Source: Treponema sp. (GTDB taxonomy: Bacteria > Spirochaetota > Spirochaetia > Treponematales > Treponemataceae). Taken from it: a DNA stretch of 37,445 nucleotides. The notes under the pieces were generated by a model, which ran no database searches, was not told the origin of the DNA, and saw only the letters and a list, made by a program, of their open reading frames with translations. Position 1 is the first letter of the stretch, and the number at the start of each line of letters is the position of its first letter. A program made the position numbers and the translations under genes. The stretch covers positions 1-37,445 of the forward strand of contig JAEELR010000024.1 in NCBI GenBank assembly GCA_016282835.1, written 5' to 3'. Below are positions 124-16,848 of this stretch, one piece after another.

Positions 124-186
124 ACATAACAAAGCTTCAAATCGGATGTCGGGTCAAGCCCGCTGCGGTACAACCAGTTGTTACAC
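124..186 (+). repeat. attC-like integron recombination site A
   Basis: The site starts with ACATAAC (124-130) and ends with GTTACAC (180-186). The ends can pair as TAACAA (127-132) with TTGTTA (178-183), as the R'' and R' boxes of attC do, and a CGGG/CCCG hairpin lies inside. The left half closely resembles the left half of site D at 13199 (CACATAA, then CTTCAAAT.GGAT). The bases after the GTT (GGACGTCCGCATTGGGGCGCA) recur almost unchanged after the GTTATGTGG at 12383. T. denticola is known to carry a chromosomal integron; no integrase gene is in this window. Confidence 0.6.
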
Positions 187-12339: not shown

Positions 12340-12382
12340 GGGTTATTTCAATTCTCTTAGTACGATAAGTATTAAATATCTT

Positions 12383-12416
12383 GTTATGTGGACGCCAGCA
12401 TTGGGGCGCAAGTTGA
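12383..12416 (+). repeat. Cassette left junction: attC R'-like half site without its R'' partner
   Basis: GTTATGTGG (12383-12391) equals the right end of attC-like site B, and the following GACGCCAGCATTGGGGCGCA nearly equals the bases after site A. No TAACA-type partner is found upstream, so only the cassette-side half is present, as expected where a cassette is inserted at a secondary (non-attC) target. Confidence 0.55.
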
Positions 12417-12423
12417 AAAAAAA

Positions 12424-12825
12424 ATGAATTATAATCCAACAGAAAAAGAAATTAGTTTTATAAACAGGGCTCTAGAAAAATTCAATGAGAAAAAAGTTGG
12501 AAGCGATAATCATCAGCTTTTAAATATTATAGAATATGATGAAAATGGAAATATAATTGCTGGGATTCTTGGTGGAACTTACTGGGGCTGGATGCATATC
12601 GATATTCTCTGGGTACATGAAAACTTCCGTAAAAAAGGAATTGGAAGTCTGCTCTTAAAGTCAGCCGAAGAAGAAGCATATAAAAGAGGATGTCATTCTG
12701 TACATGTAGATACAATGTCCTGGCAAGCTCCTGAATTTTACAAGAAACACGGTTATAAAATGATCAGCGAACTTAATGATATTCCAACCGGATATAAAAA
12801 ATATCATTTAATCAAAGAACTATAA
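12424..12825 (+). CDS. GNAT-family N-acetyltransferase
   Basis: 133 residues from ATG 12424; the track start GTG 12388 would lie inside the attC-like half site, so the internal ATG is preferred although it lacks a clear Shine-Dalgarno. The GNAT core is complete: WMHIDILWVHENFRKKG has the beta-4 strand followed by the acetyl-CoA loop RKKGIG (motif A), and the helix, strand and turn FYKKHGYKMISELNDIPTG form motif B. Small GNATs acetylate antibiotics, polyamines or protein and RNA amino groups; the substrate cannot be read from sequence. Its neighbour is a small putative DNA-binding protein, so a GNAT-type toxin-antitoxin pair is conceivable but weakly supported, since the order is reversed and the downstream gene has its own promoter. 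Confidence 0.85.
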   Translation: MNYNPTEKEISFINRALEKFNEKKVGSDNHQLLNIIEYDENGNIIAGILGGTYWGWMHIDILWVHENFRKKGIGSLLLKSAEEEAYKRGCHSVHVDTMSWQAPEFYKKHGYKMISELNDIPTGYKKYHLIKEL

Positions 12826-12844
12826 AATCATTTTCTTGAAATTG

Positions 12845-12874
12845 TTGACATATTCAAAAAGATTTTTTTATAAT
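12845..12874 (+). promoter_or_regulatory. Strong promoter for the downstream small gene, with a dyad near the start
   Basis: TTGACA (12845-12850) and TATAAT (12869-12874) are both consensus with an 18-nt spacer. The expected start point near 12881 is followed at once by the dyad GAAC-ttc-GTTC (12885-12895) inside AAACGAACTTCGTTCAGTTT, a plausible operator. Confidence 0.75.
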
Positions 12875-12904
12875 AAAGACAAACGAACTTCGTTCAGTTT
12901 GATT

Positions 12905-13192
12905 ATGGATTATGTTTTTGTAAAAGATTCAGAAGGTTATGTTTTTAAGAAATTAGAAAATGAAGTTTCTCCAGATGAAAAAATAATTTCTGAAAAAGAA
13001 TATATGAAAAAATCTGGACTTACTTCATATGAAAAGAAATTTGGACATGGTGGTGCAAGAGAAAATGCAGGAAGAAAACAGAAATTTGCATTGCCTCTGA
13101 AATTTCAAATTCGTGTAACAAAAGAAGAAAAAGATTTTATTGCCTACGCAAGAGAACATAAAGTCGACTACTCTGCTCTGATGCAAATGTAA
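12905..13192 (+). CDS. Small putative DNA-binding/antitoxin-like protein
   Basis: 95 residues from ATG 12905; the track start at TTG 12836 lies upstream of the promoter and is rejected. The N-terminal part (DYVFVKDSEGYVFKK) is a short beta-rich stretch. The middle carries GGARENAGRKQ, a basic motif common at the N-terminal edge of phage- and plasmid-type ribbon-helix-helix or antitoxin-like proteins, and the C-terminus LKFQIRVTKEEKDFIAYARE fits one RHH strand followed by a helix. I do not recognise a defined family. The strong private promoter and dyad suggest self-regulation. It ends just before attC-like site D and no classical toxin gene lies next to it. Confidence 0.6.
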   Translation: MDYVFVKDSEGYVFKKLENEVSPDEKIISEKEYMKKSGLTSYEKKFGHGGARENAGRKQKFALPLKFQIRVTKEEKDFIAYAREHKVDYSALMQM

Positions 13193-13198
13193 AATCAC

Positions 13199-13260
13199 AT
13201 AAGATGCACTTCAAATTGGATATTGCAGATAAGCTGCTCCACCGTTTAAGTGCGTATTAT
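13199..13260 (+). repeat. attC-like site D, degenerate right end
   Basis: Nested pairs: ATAA/TTAT at the ends, GCACTT (13206-13211) with AAGTGC, TGGA with TCCA, GCAG with CTGC. The left half matches site A closely (CACATAA, then CTTCAAAT.GGAT). The right R' box lacks a clear GTT and runs straight into a GATCCTGAAAC-type repeat, so the site may be damaged. Confidence 0.5.
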
Positions 13261-13334
13261 ACAGATCCTGAAACAAGTTCAGGATGACAGTTTCGTCTTG
13301 TCATTTAGATCCTGTAACAAGTTCAGGATGACAG
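13261..13334 (+). repeat. Two copies of a short palindromic intergenic repeat
   Basis: AGATCCTGAAACAAGTTCAG (then GATGACAG) occurs at 13263-13290 and again, with one change, at 13307-13334. Each holds the hairpin TCCTGAA/TTCAGGA (imperfect in copy two). Similar palindromes are widespread in bacterial genomes, including treponemes. They lie just after the stop of the minus-strand HAD-MutS2 gene and could act as its 3' hairpin. Confidence 0.85.
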
Positions 13335-13354: not shown

Positions 13355-16300
13355 TTACTCCAATTCAACATAAGTTTTCCCAGAACCACCGTCTTCCGGG
13401 CGGGCAAAGTGGAAGTCTTTTATTCCCGGATAATTTGAGAGCAAATCTTTTACTGCCTGCTGTAAGATTCCGTCTCCCTTTCCGTGAATAATGCTGAACG
13501 ATTTAAAGCCTGTGATTGCACATAAATCCAGCTGCTTCTGAACTTCTTTTAAAGCCTGTTCACATCTCATTCCTAAAAGGCGCAGTTCAAATTTTGGTTT
13601 TTCAGTTTTGTATTCTGTGTTTGCATATTCAACACTCAGGTTTATTTTGCTTTGATTTGATGGAGCTTCTGCAGGAATAATTTCTTCTTCTTTAAAATTC
13701 ATTTTTATTGAACCAAAGTGTACGGTGTAGAAATTATTTTTTGTTTTGCTTCCAAGAATTCCTTTTCGTTTTTCTTTTCCTGCTAAGACTTCAATTCCTT
13801 CTTTAAGTTCAATCTTCTTTGTTTCATTAGATTTTCTTGCCGGAAGTTCGATTGCTGTAGCATATTCCAGGGCCTTTGAATTTGAAAGGCGGGCTTTAGT
13901 TTTTTTATTTGATTTTGACTTTGAATTTTTAGAAGTAAGTTTCATTCCGTTTTCAAAGATTTTAACTTCGCCTGAATGCTTTTCTTTTTCTTCTTCGAGT
14001 TTTTCTTTTTCACTTTCGAGGAGCATATCTCTTTCTGAAAGTTTTTCCTGTAAAGAAGAAATAAAGTTTTTTGCTCCTAAAGTTTTTTCTCTTGTTATTT
14101 CGCCTTCCCGTATTTTTCTGATAAGGTTTTCCAGTTCCTTTCGGCTTTCAGATAAAAATGCAAAGCTTTGTTTTTGTTCGATTGTCTTTAATTCTAACTC
14201 TTTTTCTTTTAGTTTTAGTTCTTTTTCCTGCTGCTTTAATTTTTTTTCTTCGAGTAAGATTTTTTCTTCTTTCTGTTCTTCAACTAATTTGTCCAGTTCA
14301 CTGTGTTTTTCTGTGAGGCCTTTTATGAGCGTGCTGACATCTGCCTGTTCTGTGTTCAAATAATTTTTTGCCTTGTCGATTACTTCCTGTGCAATTCCGC
14401 TTTCACCTGCAATTTCAAGAGCGTGACTTTCACCTGGAACTCCCATTAATAGCCTGTAGGTAGGGCGCAGAGTGTTTTTGTCAAAATCAACGCTGGCATT
14501 TATACAGTAAGGATTTGTGTATCCGTAGTTCTTTAAGATTCCGTGGTGGGTTGTAGCGATTACCCAGGATTTTCTTTCCAGGAATGTATCTAACTCTGCC
14601 ATTGCAAGAGCACCGCCTTCCTGAGGGTCTGTTCCGCTTGCAAGTTCATCAAGTAAAAGCAAAGTGTTTTCGTCTGCGTGTTCAAGCATTTGGGAGTGTT
14701 TTTTCATATGTGCCGAGAAGGTACTTAAGGAAGAATCGATTGACTGCTCGTCTCCAATGTCTGCAAAGATTTTTGTAAAGACTGGCAGCGCTGTTCCGTC
14801 TGAAGCAAGAACCGGGAAGCCTGCCTGATTTAATAGAGCGCTGAGTGCAATCGTTTTTAATGTAACGGTTTTTCCTCCTGTGTTTGGTCCTGTGATGATA
14901 AGAATTTTTTTGCCTTCCAGATATTCTATGTCGAGAGGAACACATTTTTCTCCCAGAAGCGGGTGGCGGACTTTTAATAATTTTAGTGTTTGTCCTTCAC
15001 TGCATTCTAAAGCGAAAACTCCTGAGTGCTGTATTTTGTATTTTGTTCCTGCAGCGTATGAGTCGAGTTTGATTAAAATTTTATGGTTTTCTTCTAATTC
15101 GTTTCTGTACAAAGAAATTTTTGAAGTAAGCTCGCGTAAGATTTTTTTTGTTTCCGAGATTAATTTGTATTCGGCTTCAACAAGCATATTGTTTGCCTTT
15201 ACAACTTCATCGGGTTCTATATAAACTGTCTGCCCTGTAGAACTTACTTCATGAACGATGCCTGAAATTTTTGAGCGGTTAGAAGCTTTTACTGCAAGAA
15301 GCTGTCTGTCGCTTCTGTATACGGGAACATTTGACTGTAATACTGTGTTCAGGCTTGAATCGCTTGTGTATTTTTTTATTGCGTTTTCAATCTGTTTCTG
15401 CAGGTTTAAAATGTTTTTTCTGATTTCTTTTAATGCAGGTAAATCCCTTATTTCGCCATAAGAATCAATTACAGAAAAGATTTCATTTTCTACGAATGAA
15501 AGATCTGACATTGCTTCTGCGTTTTTAGTAAGCAGGGGAAGCGTAAAGTTTTCAGATGAAGTTTTTATAATTTCTTTTAATTTTCGTGAACTGATACAAA
15601 ACTTTCCTATAGCAAATAATTCTTCTTTTGAAAGCTGAGTGCCGGAAACCTTTAATGCCTGGAAGGATTTTTGAACCTGCGGGAAATATTCTATCGGGTT
15701 GCTTCTTGTTGTTGTAAGAATTTTTTCCCATTCCATAGAAATGTTTTTGATTTCGTTTATTTTGTTTGAATCGCTTGAAGCTTCTCTTTTTAGAGTAAAG
15801 TCTTTGCCTTCTTCTGTGCTGCTTAAGCTTGCGATTTCATCTCTGATTCTGTAAAAATCTAATTCTTTTGCAATTTGTCCTTTCAGGAAAATGTCAGTTT
15901 CTTCTTCTGAGTCTGAATTTGTTTTGCTTTCAATTGAAAAGTATGAAAGGATGTCATTCGGTACCTGAGCAAAATTGCTGGCCCCGCAGGAAGTTAACTG
16001 CTCTTCGGTTCTAAAGCCCCACAAAACGCTTATGCAGTCGAGGCCCGCATTTAATGAAGTTTGATAATCTACATCGGAGTCTCCAGCGTAAAAGGCCTGG
16101 TCTTTGTTTACATTCAGGTTTTCAAGCACTTTATAAACAGAGTCAGGCTGGGGTTTTAGTTTTATTCCTTCCTGAGCGCCGATTGCACAAGTGGAGTCAA
16201 TATATTCGCTGAAAAATATTCTGTTTAATTCTTTAACCTGAGCGTCCGGTTTGTTTGAGACAATTCCCATTTTGATTCCGTTTGCTTTAAGGGTTTTCAT

Positions 16301-16582
16301 TAAGTCTAAAATGCCTGCGTAGGGTTTTGTTTTTACAAGGCAGTTTTTACTGTAAGTCTCCTGTAAAAAACTATATGCTTTTTCGAAATTTGGATTTTGA
16401 GTTCCGCCCGGGATGGCTCTTTCTAAAAGTTTTTTTATTCCGTTTCCAACAAATTTCCGCACCTCGTCTTTTGTTCTTTGTGGCGCGTTAAACTTTTTTA
16501 AAACAATGTTTGTGCTGTCAGTTAAATCGTCGAGAGTGTCCAGTATTGTTCCGTCCATGTCAAAAATGATTGCGTTTTTCAT
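13355..16582 (-). CDS. Fusion of a HAD phosphatase (phosphoglycolate phosphatase type) with MutS2
   Basis: 1075 residues in one open frame. Residues 1 to about 217 form a complete Gph-like HAD phosphatase: DMDGT (Asp8, Asp10), Ser109 in VSNKP, Lys143, and GDSDVD (Asp168, Asp172). After an acidic linker (about 218-232) the MutS2 part begins at about 233 with KELDFYRIRDEIASLSS, as in free-standing MutS2. It has the core ATPase with Walker A GPNTGGKT (about 564-571), LLLDELASGTDP and ATTHHG, a long charged coiled coil (about 740-890), a small beta domain, and a C-terminal Smr nuclease-like domain (about 998-1075, LLGMRCEQAL and HGKGDG). MutS2 rescues stalled ribosomes or acts on recombination and oxidised DNA, depending on species. 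No internal Met near the junction would allow separate translation. AAGGAC precedes the ATG. Confidence 0.93.
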   Translation of the reverse strand: MKNAIIFDMDGTILDTLDDLTDSTNIVLKKFNAPQRTKDEVRKFVGNGIKKLLERAIPGGTQNPNFEKAYSFLQETYSKNCLVKTKPYAGILDLMKTLKANGIKMGIVSNKPDAQVKELNRIFFSEYIDSTCAIGAQEGIKLKPQPDSVYKVLENLNVNKDQAFYAGDSDVDYQTSLNAGLDCISVLWGFRTEEQLTSCGASNFAQVPNDILSYFSIESKTNSDSEEETDIFLKGQIAKELDFYRIRDEIASLSSTEEGKDFTLKREASSDSNKINEIKNISMEWEKILTTTRSNPIEYFPQVQKSFQALKVSGTQLSKEELFAIGKFCISSRKLKEIIKTSSENFTLPLLTKNAEAMSDLSFVENEIFSVIDSYGEIRDLPALKEIRKNILNLQKQIENAIKKYTSDSSLNTVLQSNVPVYRSDRQLLAVKASNRSKISGIVHEVSSTGQTVYIEPDEVVKANNMLVEAEYKLISETKKILRELTSKISLYRNELEENHKILIKLDSYAAGTKYKIQHSGVFALECSEGQTLKLLKVRHPLLGEKCVPLDIEYLEGKKILIITGPNTGGKTVTLKTIALSALLNQAGFPVLASDGTALPVFTKIFADIGDEQSIDSSLSTFSAHMKKHSQMLEHADENTLLLLDELASGTDPQEGGALAMAELDTFLERKSWVIATTHHGILKNYGYTNPYCINASVDFDKNTLRPTYRLLMGVPGESHALEIAGESGIAQEVIDKAKNYLNTEQADVSTLIKGLTEKHSELDKLVEEQKEEKILLEEKKLKQQEKELKLKEKELELKTIEQKQSFAFLSESRKELENLIRKIREGEITREKTLGAKNFISSLQEKLSERDMLLESEKEKLEEEKEKHSGEVKIFENGMKLTSKNSKSKSNKKTKARLSNSKALEYATAIELPARKSNETKKIELKEGIEVLAGKEKRKGILGSKTKNNFYTVHFGSIKMNFKEEEIIPAEAPSNQSKINLSVEYANTEYKTEKPKFELRLLGMRCEQALKEVQKQLDLCAITGFKSFSIIHGKGDGILQQAVKDLLSNYPGIKDFHFARPEDGGSGKTYVELE

Positions 16583-16680: not shown

Positions 16681-16848
16681 TGTATAGTACAGATTCCGAA
16701 ACAAGTTCGGAATGACAGATTTATTCTTCACTATAAAGAAGAAGTTTGTCATGCTGAATTCATTTCAGCATCTGTGTAGTACAGATTCTAAAGCCATGCT
16801 CAGAATGACAGGTTGTTGTGGTTTCGACAGGCTCAACCACCGTGTTAT
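16681..16848 (+). repeat. Cluster of short palindromic repeats upstream of HAD-MutS2
   Basis: Contains AGATTCCGAAACAAGTTCGG (16691 on, followed by AATGACAG), the inverted pair GCTGAAT/TTCAGC near 16753, a diverged copy AGATTCTAAAGCC...CAGAATGACA (16783-16810), and a GGTTTCGACAGGCTCAACC hairpin (16817-16839). These are the same families as at 13261 and around 25390 and 32556. The rest of the 481-nt gene-free stretch 16583-17063 holds the repeat at 16892 and promoters. Confidence 0.8.

Follow-up and report, generated by a model that had tools for sequence, protein, structure and literature searches.

A solitary integron cassette within a copy of a dispersed palindromic repeat in a Treponema genome

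The locus and its question

How does a single integron cassette come to lie by itself behind a V-ATPase operon, at a place that is neither attI nor attC, and into what was it inserted? The question is posed by the window (the whole stretch of DNA analysed here: contig C14, 37,445 nt), which comes from a fragmented 2.77-Mb MAG in 287 contigs (93.11% complete, 5.85% contaminated). An attC covariance model finds the sites of a cassette array near the start of the window (124-186 and 1613-1675), and a third site, D, at 13197-13262, far from the array. The reading preferred here, at a probability of roughly 0.9, is that a cassette of the local chromosomal-integron type was recombined by IntI, through its attC, into the core of a repeat that is not an attC, and has since decayed. 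A sequence-only reading had already proposed a solitary cassette at a non-attC target; the cassette head, the attC and three uninterrupted copies of the target (on contigs C10, C103 and C212) now bear this out. The features are collected in Table 1.

(A technical note: the genus sample comprised 200 genomes; pattern and GNAT searches were run against the 195 other genomes, and the integrase family was scored in 196. For the covariance model, 28 attC sites were taken from other genomes and none from the window; they were picked for having the triplets, and include relatives of the site D subtype.)

Table 1. Features of the off-array cassette and its flanks (window coordinates)
Feature	Position	Strand	Basis
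Left target flank downstream of usp, ending in the 5' portion of the split repeat (~16 nt, AGTATTAAATATCTTG)	12340..12383	+	aligns through the junction with C10, C103, C212
Integron cassette, inserted at G^TT	12384..13256 (873 nt)	+	head motif, attC, empty-site copies
Cassette head TTATGTGGACGCCAGCATTGGGGCGCA..., common to array cassettes	12384..12423	+	
GNAT acetyltransferase gene, 133 aa, intact	12424..12825	+	PF00583, E 4.4e-15; full-length genus relatives, 70-87% identity
Promoter-like site, with the -35 of the original toxin-antitoxin promoter and a -10 that was once toxin coding sequence	12845..12874	+	
Deletion 1 scar, about 163 bp vs G212, at repeated ATTCAAAAAG	12852..12861	+	
Gp49-type toxin gene remnant	12862..12896	+	intact homologue: PF05973, E 5.8e-13
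Deletion 2 scar, about 111 bp vs G212	about 12896..12897	+	
Putative antitoxin gene, 95 aa, toxin gone	12905..13192	+	follows intact Gp49-type toxin gene in relatives
attC site D, cassette part; AAC -> AAG, last G lost	13197..13256	+	E 3.4e-7 over 13197-13262; homologue L213:10858-10923
Right target flank TTATACAGATCCTGAAACAAGTTCAGGATGACAG, supplying the 3' portion of the interrupted palindromic repeat	13257..13291	+	

The limits of the cassette

The two ends are legible to the base: the left junction is G12383^T12384 and the right one A13256^T13257. The cassette-type head that had been noted at the left edge does stand exactly at 12383 (GTTATGTGG), and the sequence from there matches the heads of the array cassettes at 180 and 1669 and of one on contig C286. 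By itself this short motif does not exceed chance (7 matches with at most one mismatch, against 5.2 expected); it is the longer, 17-nt head that distinguishes the site, occurring without mismatch only at 181, 1670 and 12384 of the window and once on C286. The right edge is fixed by comparison with homologous attC sites, which read ...GTTTAAGTGCGTAG^TTAT where the window reads ...GTTTAAGTGCGTA-TTATACAG, one base (G) being missing at the junction. The cassette thus occupies 12384-13256; the end at 13260 that had been proposed lies 4 nt too far, already inside the target.

The attC-like character of the right edge was recognised independently by the covariance model (32.4 bits), which ranks site D third, behind two array sites, while the next match, at 14 bits, is at noise level. 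(An Rfam search gave no match.) The predicted fold of the bottom strand is weaker for site D (z -2.26) than for the homologue listed in Table 1 (z -4.45), and the R-box triplets AAC/GTT, intact in that homologue, read AAG and ATT. Site D is a decayed member of the attC class, with both core triplets damaged, and the cassette is therefore probably immobile now. The sequence-only reading had pointed to a degraded 3' part of the site as a sign of immobilisation. That divergence is to be expected, the right half-site belonging to the target, although the two triplets are damaged as well.

Of the two array sites, the one at 124-186 (site A) is apparently a hybrid, its left half of one attC subtype and its right half of another. 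The array cassettes have contents of their own. One carries a gene of the aminoglycoside 3-N-acetyltransferase family (220-924), which does not reach the curated cut-offs set for the named resistance families, together with a HicAB-type toxin-antitoxin pair (967-1618); the last (1709-2700, with a TPR-like gene) is followed by no attC match.

The target and its uninterrupted copies

The right flank of the cassette is part of a palindromic repeat that is dispersed over about 28 further places in the genome. An intergenic repeat had been noted beside the cassette; the repeat is there, but the cassette sits inside a copy of it and is not merely adjacent. The insertion point within the repeat is G^TTATACAG, so that the locus free of its cassette would read TATTAAATATCTTG^TTATACAGATCC. 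The copy on C10 extends leftward with the same sequence as the left flank of the window: over 52 nt across the junction, the reconstructed empty site and C10 differ at 4 positions, and each occupied junction matches C10 on its own side only. A 26-nt pattern spanning the junction finds, with up to 3 mismatches, C10, C103 and C212 and nothing in the 195 other genomes (control 0; expected 0.006); since its letters were taken from the window and C10, only C103 and C212 are independent matches. All three are copies of the dispersed repeat, and the target is thus neither attI nor attC. The cut falls at a G^TT-like core, with no target duplication. Further copies of the repeat family lie elsewhere in the window, at 13304-13331 (-), 16688-16715 (-) and 16749-16776 (+).

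Might the repeat instead have arisen or inserted next to a cassette that was there before, the similarity of the left flank being fortuitous? On the left, conservation extends over only about 16 nt, and most copies of the repeat lack this part, which counts for this order of events and, equally, against insertion into the repeat. Still, C10 agrees at 14 of these 16 nt, immediately at the cut, and C103 and C212 carry the same joined sequence at an expectation of 0.006; coincidence is accordingly very improbable. A second alternative, a former cassette array at this place cut down to one cassette (a CALIN remnant), has more to recommend it: the genus often has attC clusters at a distance from intI, this cassette has undergone deletions, and exact excisions could in principle have left a single cassette. 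It is nevertheless improbable, as no attC lies to the left of the cassette and the flanks join into a continuous copy of a repeat that is found elsewhere. Insertion into the repeat remains the preferred reading, with the proviso that what serves as the empty site is the repeat at other places in this genome, not the same locus in a relative.

That locus is not readily compared. Among the 200 genomes, a usp match at E <= 1e-46 is found only in the window's own; at the V-ATPase-usp loci of 29 relatives, neither the GNAT nor the antitoxin gene was detected downstream of usp, nor was mutS2 within the flank examined. In the window itself, 13355-16582 (-) is a single 1075-aa frame fusing a HAD phosphatase to MutS2: its match in G001 spans the full length with one TAA, many relatives in the genus match the two parts separately, and a contig scan with the fused protein returned distant HAD proteins only.

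The cassette genes and their origin

The GNAT assignment, proposed earlier, is upheld by a Pfam match (Table 1). The gene lies on the usp strand, 85 nt downstream of usp, with no terminator-like site found in between, and may for these reasons be transcribed together with the V-ATPase-usp genes. The small gene behind it had been taken for a regulator. A different identity is suggested by relatives such as G212, in which the order is GNAT, a 98-aa Gp49-type toxin, and then the small gene (full-length toxin frames are present in G212, G065 and G100). It is a putative antitoxin on the strength of its position and of a weak match to RelB (E 0.035), and is up to 97% identical (amino acids) in the genus. 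The window retains no intact Gp49-type toxin-antitoxin module, the toxin gene having been lost through two deletions, the second of which removed its 3' end together with the AGGAGG ahead of the small gene. (The scars were placed by blastn anchors and a longer alignment; MAFFT misplaced the left anchor of the deletion region.) The consensus promoter that had been pointed out does match at 12 of 12 positions; it is in part a by-product of deletion 1, which brought the old -35 up to a -10 made of toxin sequence, and promoter-like sites as a class are no commoner here than in shuffles.

By its sequence relations the cassette is a horizontal acquisition: full-length GNAT relatives occur in 33 of the 195 other genomes, and the GNAT and antitoxin genes reach 87% and 97% identity across the genus although the neighbouring usp does not exceed 51% (atpD: about 66-75%). 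An expectation raised by the sequence-only reading, that the same cassette should turn up in the arrays of other treponemes, holds for its genes: in G001 the GNAT and antitoxin genes lie 1.6 and 2.4 kb downstream of intI, and the antitoxin gene is also present in the integron array of G065. Could a phage, a plasmid or an insertion sequence have brought the genes instead? More distant GNAT relatives do reside on plasmids and phages. Yet among the matches listed the best plasmid relative is only about 41% identical and the phage match reaches 45% on a short segment or 35% when taken at full length, no match was confirmed in viral contigs, and both ends are cassette ends. Of the alternatives weighed here, this one is the least probable.

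Other cassettes outside arrays

Three off-array cassettes are readable in this MAG. That on C216 (1,302 nt, with a glyoxalase-like gene, a Phd/ParE-like pair and an attC) interrupts an rpn-like gene at ATATGTG^TTATACAG; when its flanks are joined they form one continuous frame, whose family matches begin near residue 8 and cross the junction. (The assignment of C216 to this organism depends on binning.) The cassette on C93 carries a SHOCT gene and a ToxN toxin gene and stops where a palindromic repeat starts, at GTAG^TCATGCTGAA; this repeat family is common to C14 and C93. All three cassettes have the attC subtype with ATGCACTTCAAA, and all have or formerly had a toxin-antitoxin pair. The toxin gene on C93 (L216:2208-3888) is of the ToxN type (type III) with short repeats ahead of it, and a literature search of titles and abstracts brought up no obvious precedent for such a gene in an integron cassette.

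Do cassettes prefer these repeats? Both edges were read for three off-array cassettes, and two of these lie in such repeats, whereas a 125-kb genome sample contained a single copy. That dispersed palindromic repeats of this species with G^TYAT ends serve as recurrent landing pads, so that cassettes spread through them and not at random, is a tentative suggestion and on present numbers rather doubtful: the cases are three, and the pattern was noticed post hoc. Elsewhere in the genus, the complete genomes searched commonly have dispersed attC sites. Of the matches that were grouped, those of G143 form 11 clusters with 5 singletons and those of G156 form 12 with 6. At nearly all solitary attC sites in other genomes the head motif was not found, and left edges are accordingly not claimed for their cassettes.

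A proposed course of events

The cassette would have started with a GNAT gene, a Gp49-type toxin-antitoxin pair and an attC, as one of the local chromosomal-integron type. An integron integrase would have recombined this attC, presumably as its folded bottom strand, with the core site G^TTATACAG in the palindromic intergenic repeat downstream of usp; the part given to IntI and the choice of strand follow known integron biology. Thereafter, probably, the toxin gene was lost through the two deletions and the core triplets of the attC decayed, fixing the cassette. Insertion draws its support from the attC found with an independent model, the head common to array cassettes, the genes in the G001 array, the empty-site copies and the parallels on C216 and C93. 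Against it must be counted the G missing at the right junction, a fragmented and contaminated MAG, and the fact that no integron integrase above the family cut-off was found in this 93%-complete MAG (57 of the 196 genomes scored have one): IntI may have acted in trans or have been lost since.

Relation to known systems

Treponema chromosomal integrons are known for attC sites that are short (63-68 nt in T. denticola), for cassette arrays and for intI (PMC3607928); the likeness to the integrons of the present genus sample lies in these features. Single attC sites without an integrase have been treated under the heading of CALIN (PMC9024848). The likeness is in the attC without a neighbouring intI; that term, however, names an arrangement and not a mode of arrival, whereas in the present case the target can be read. 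The insertion of cassettes at secondary sites, or attG, is reportedly the subject of work by Loot et al. (2024). Passages of PMC12901181 and PMC12444791 describe insertions at attG, and natural secondary-site cassettes (the aadB cases) are cited in a passage of PMC10127599. The remark that such insertions are seldom seen in a genome with both ends readable needs correcting in the light of this literature and of the dispersed attC sites in the complete genomes searched: the kind of insertion is already known, and what is newly suggested is that repeats serve as landing pads. The treponeme cases offer natural, base-level examples of cassettes that have settled off the array with their target readable in the same genome; were repeats indeed preferred, cassette spread could become predictable, and a count of the insertions found at G^TYAT ends could serve as the test. 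In common with attG and secondary-site insertion, a whole cassette with its attC has entered a G^TT-like core that belongs to neither attI nor attC; set apart from it are the treponeme host, a dispersed palindromic repeat as the target, three cases in one MAG, and a copy that has decayed.
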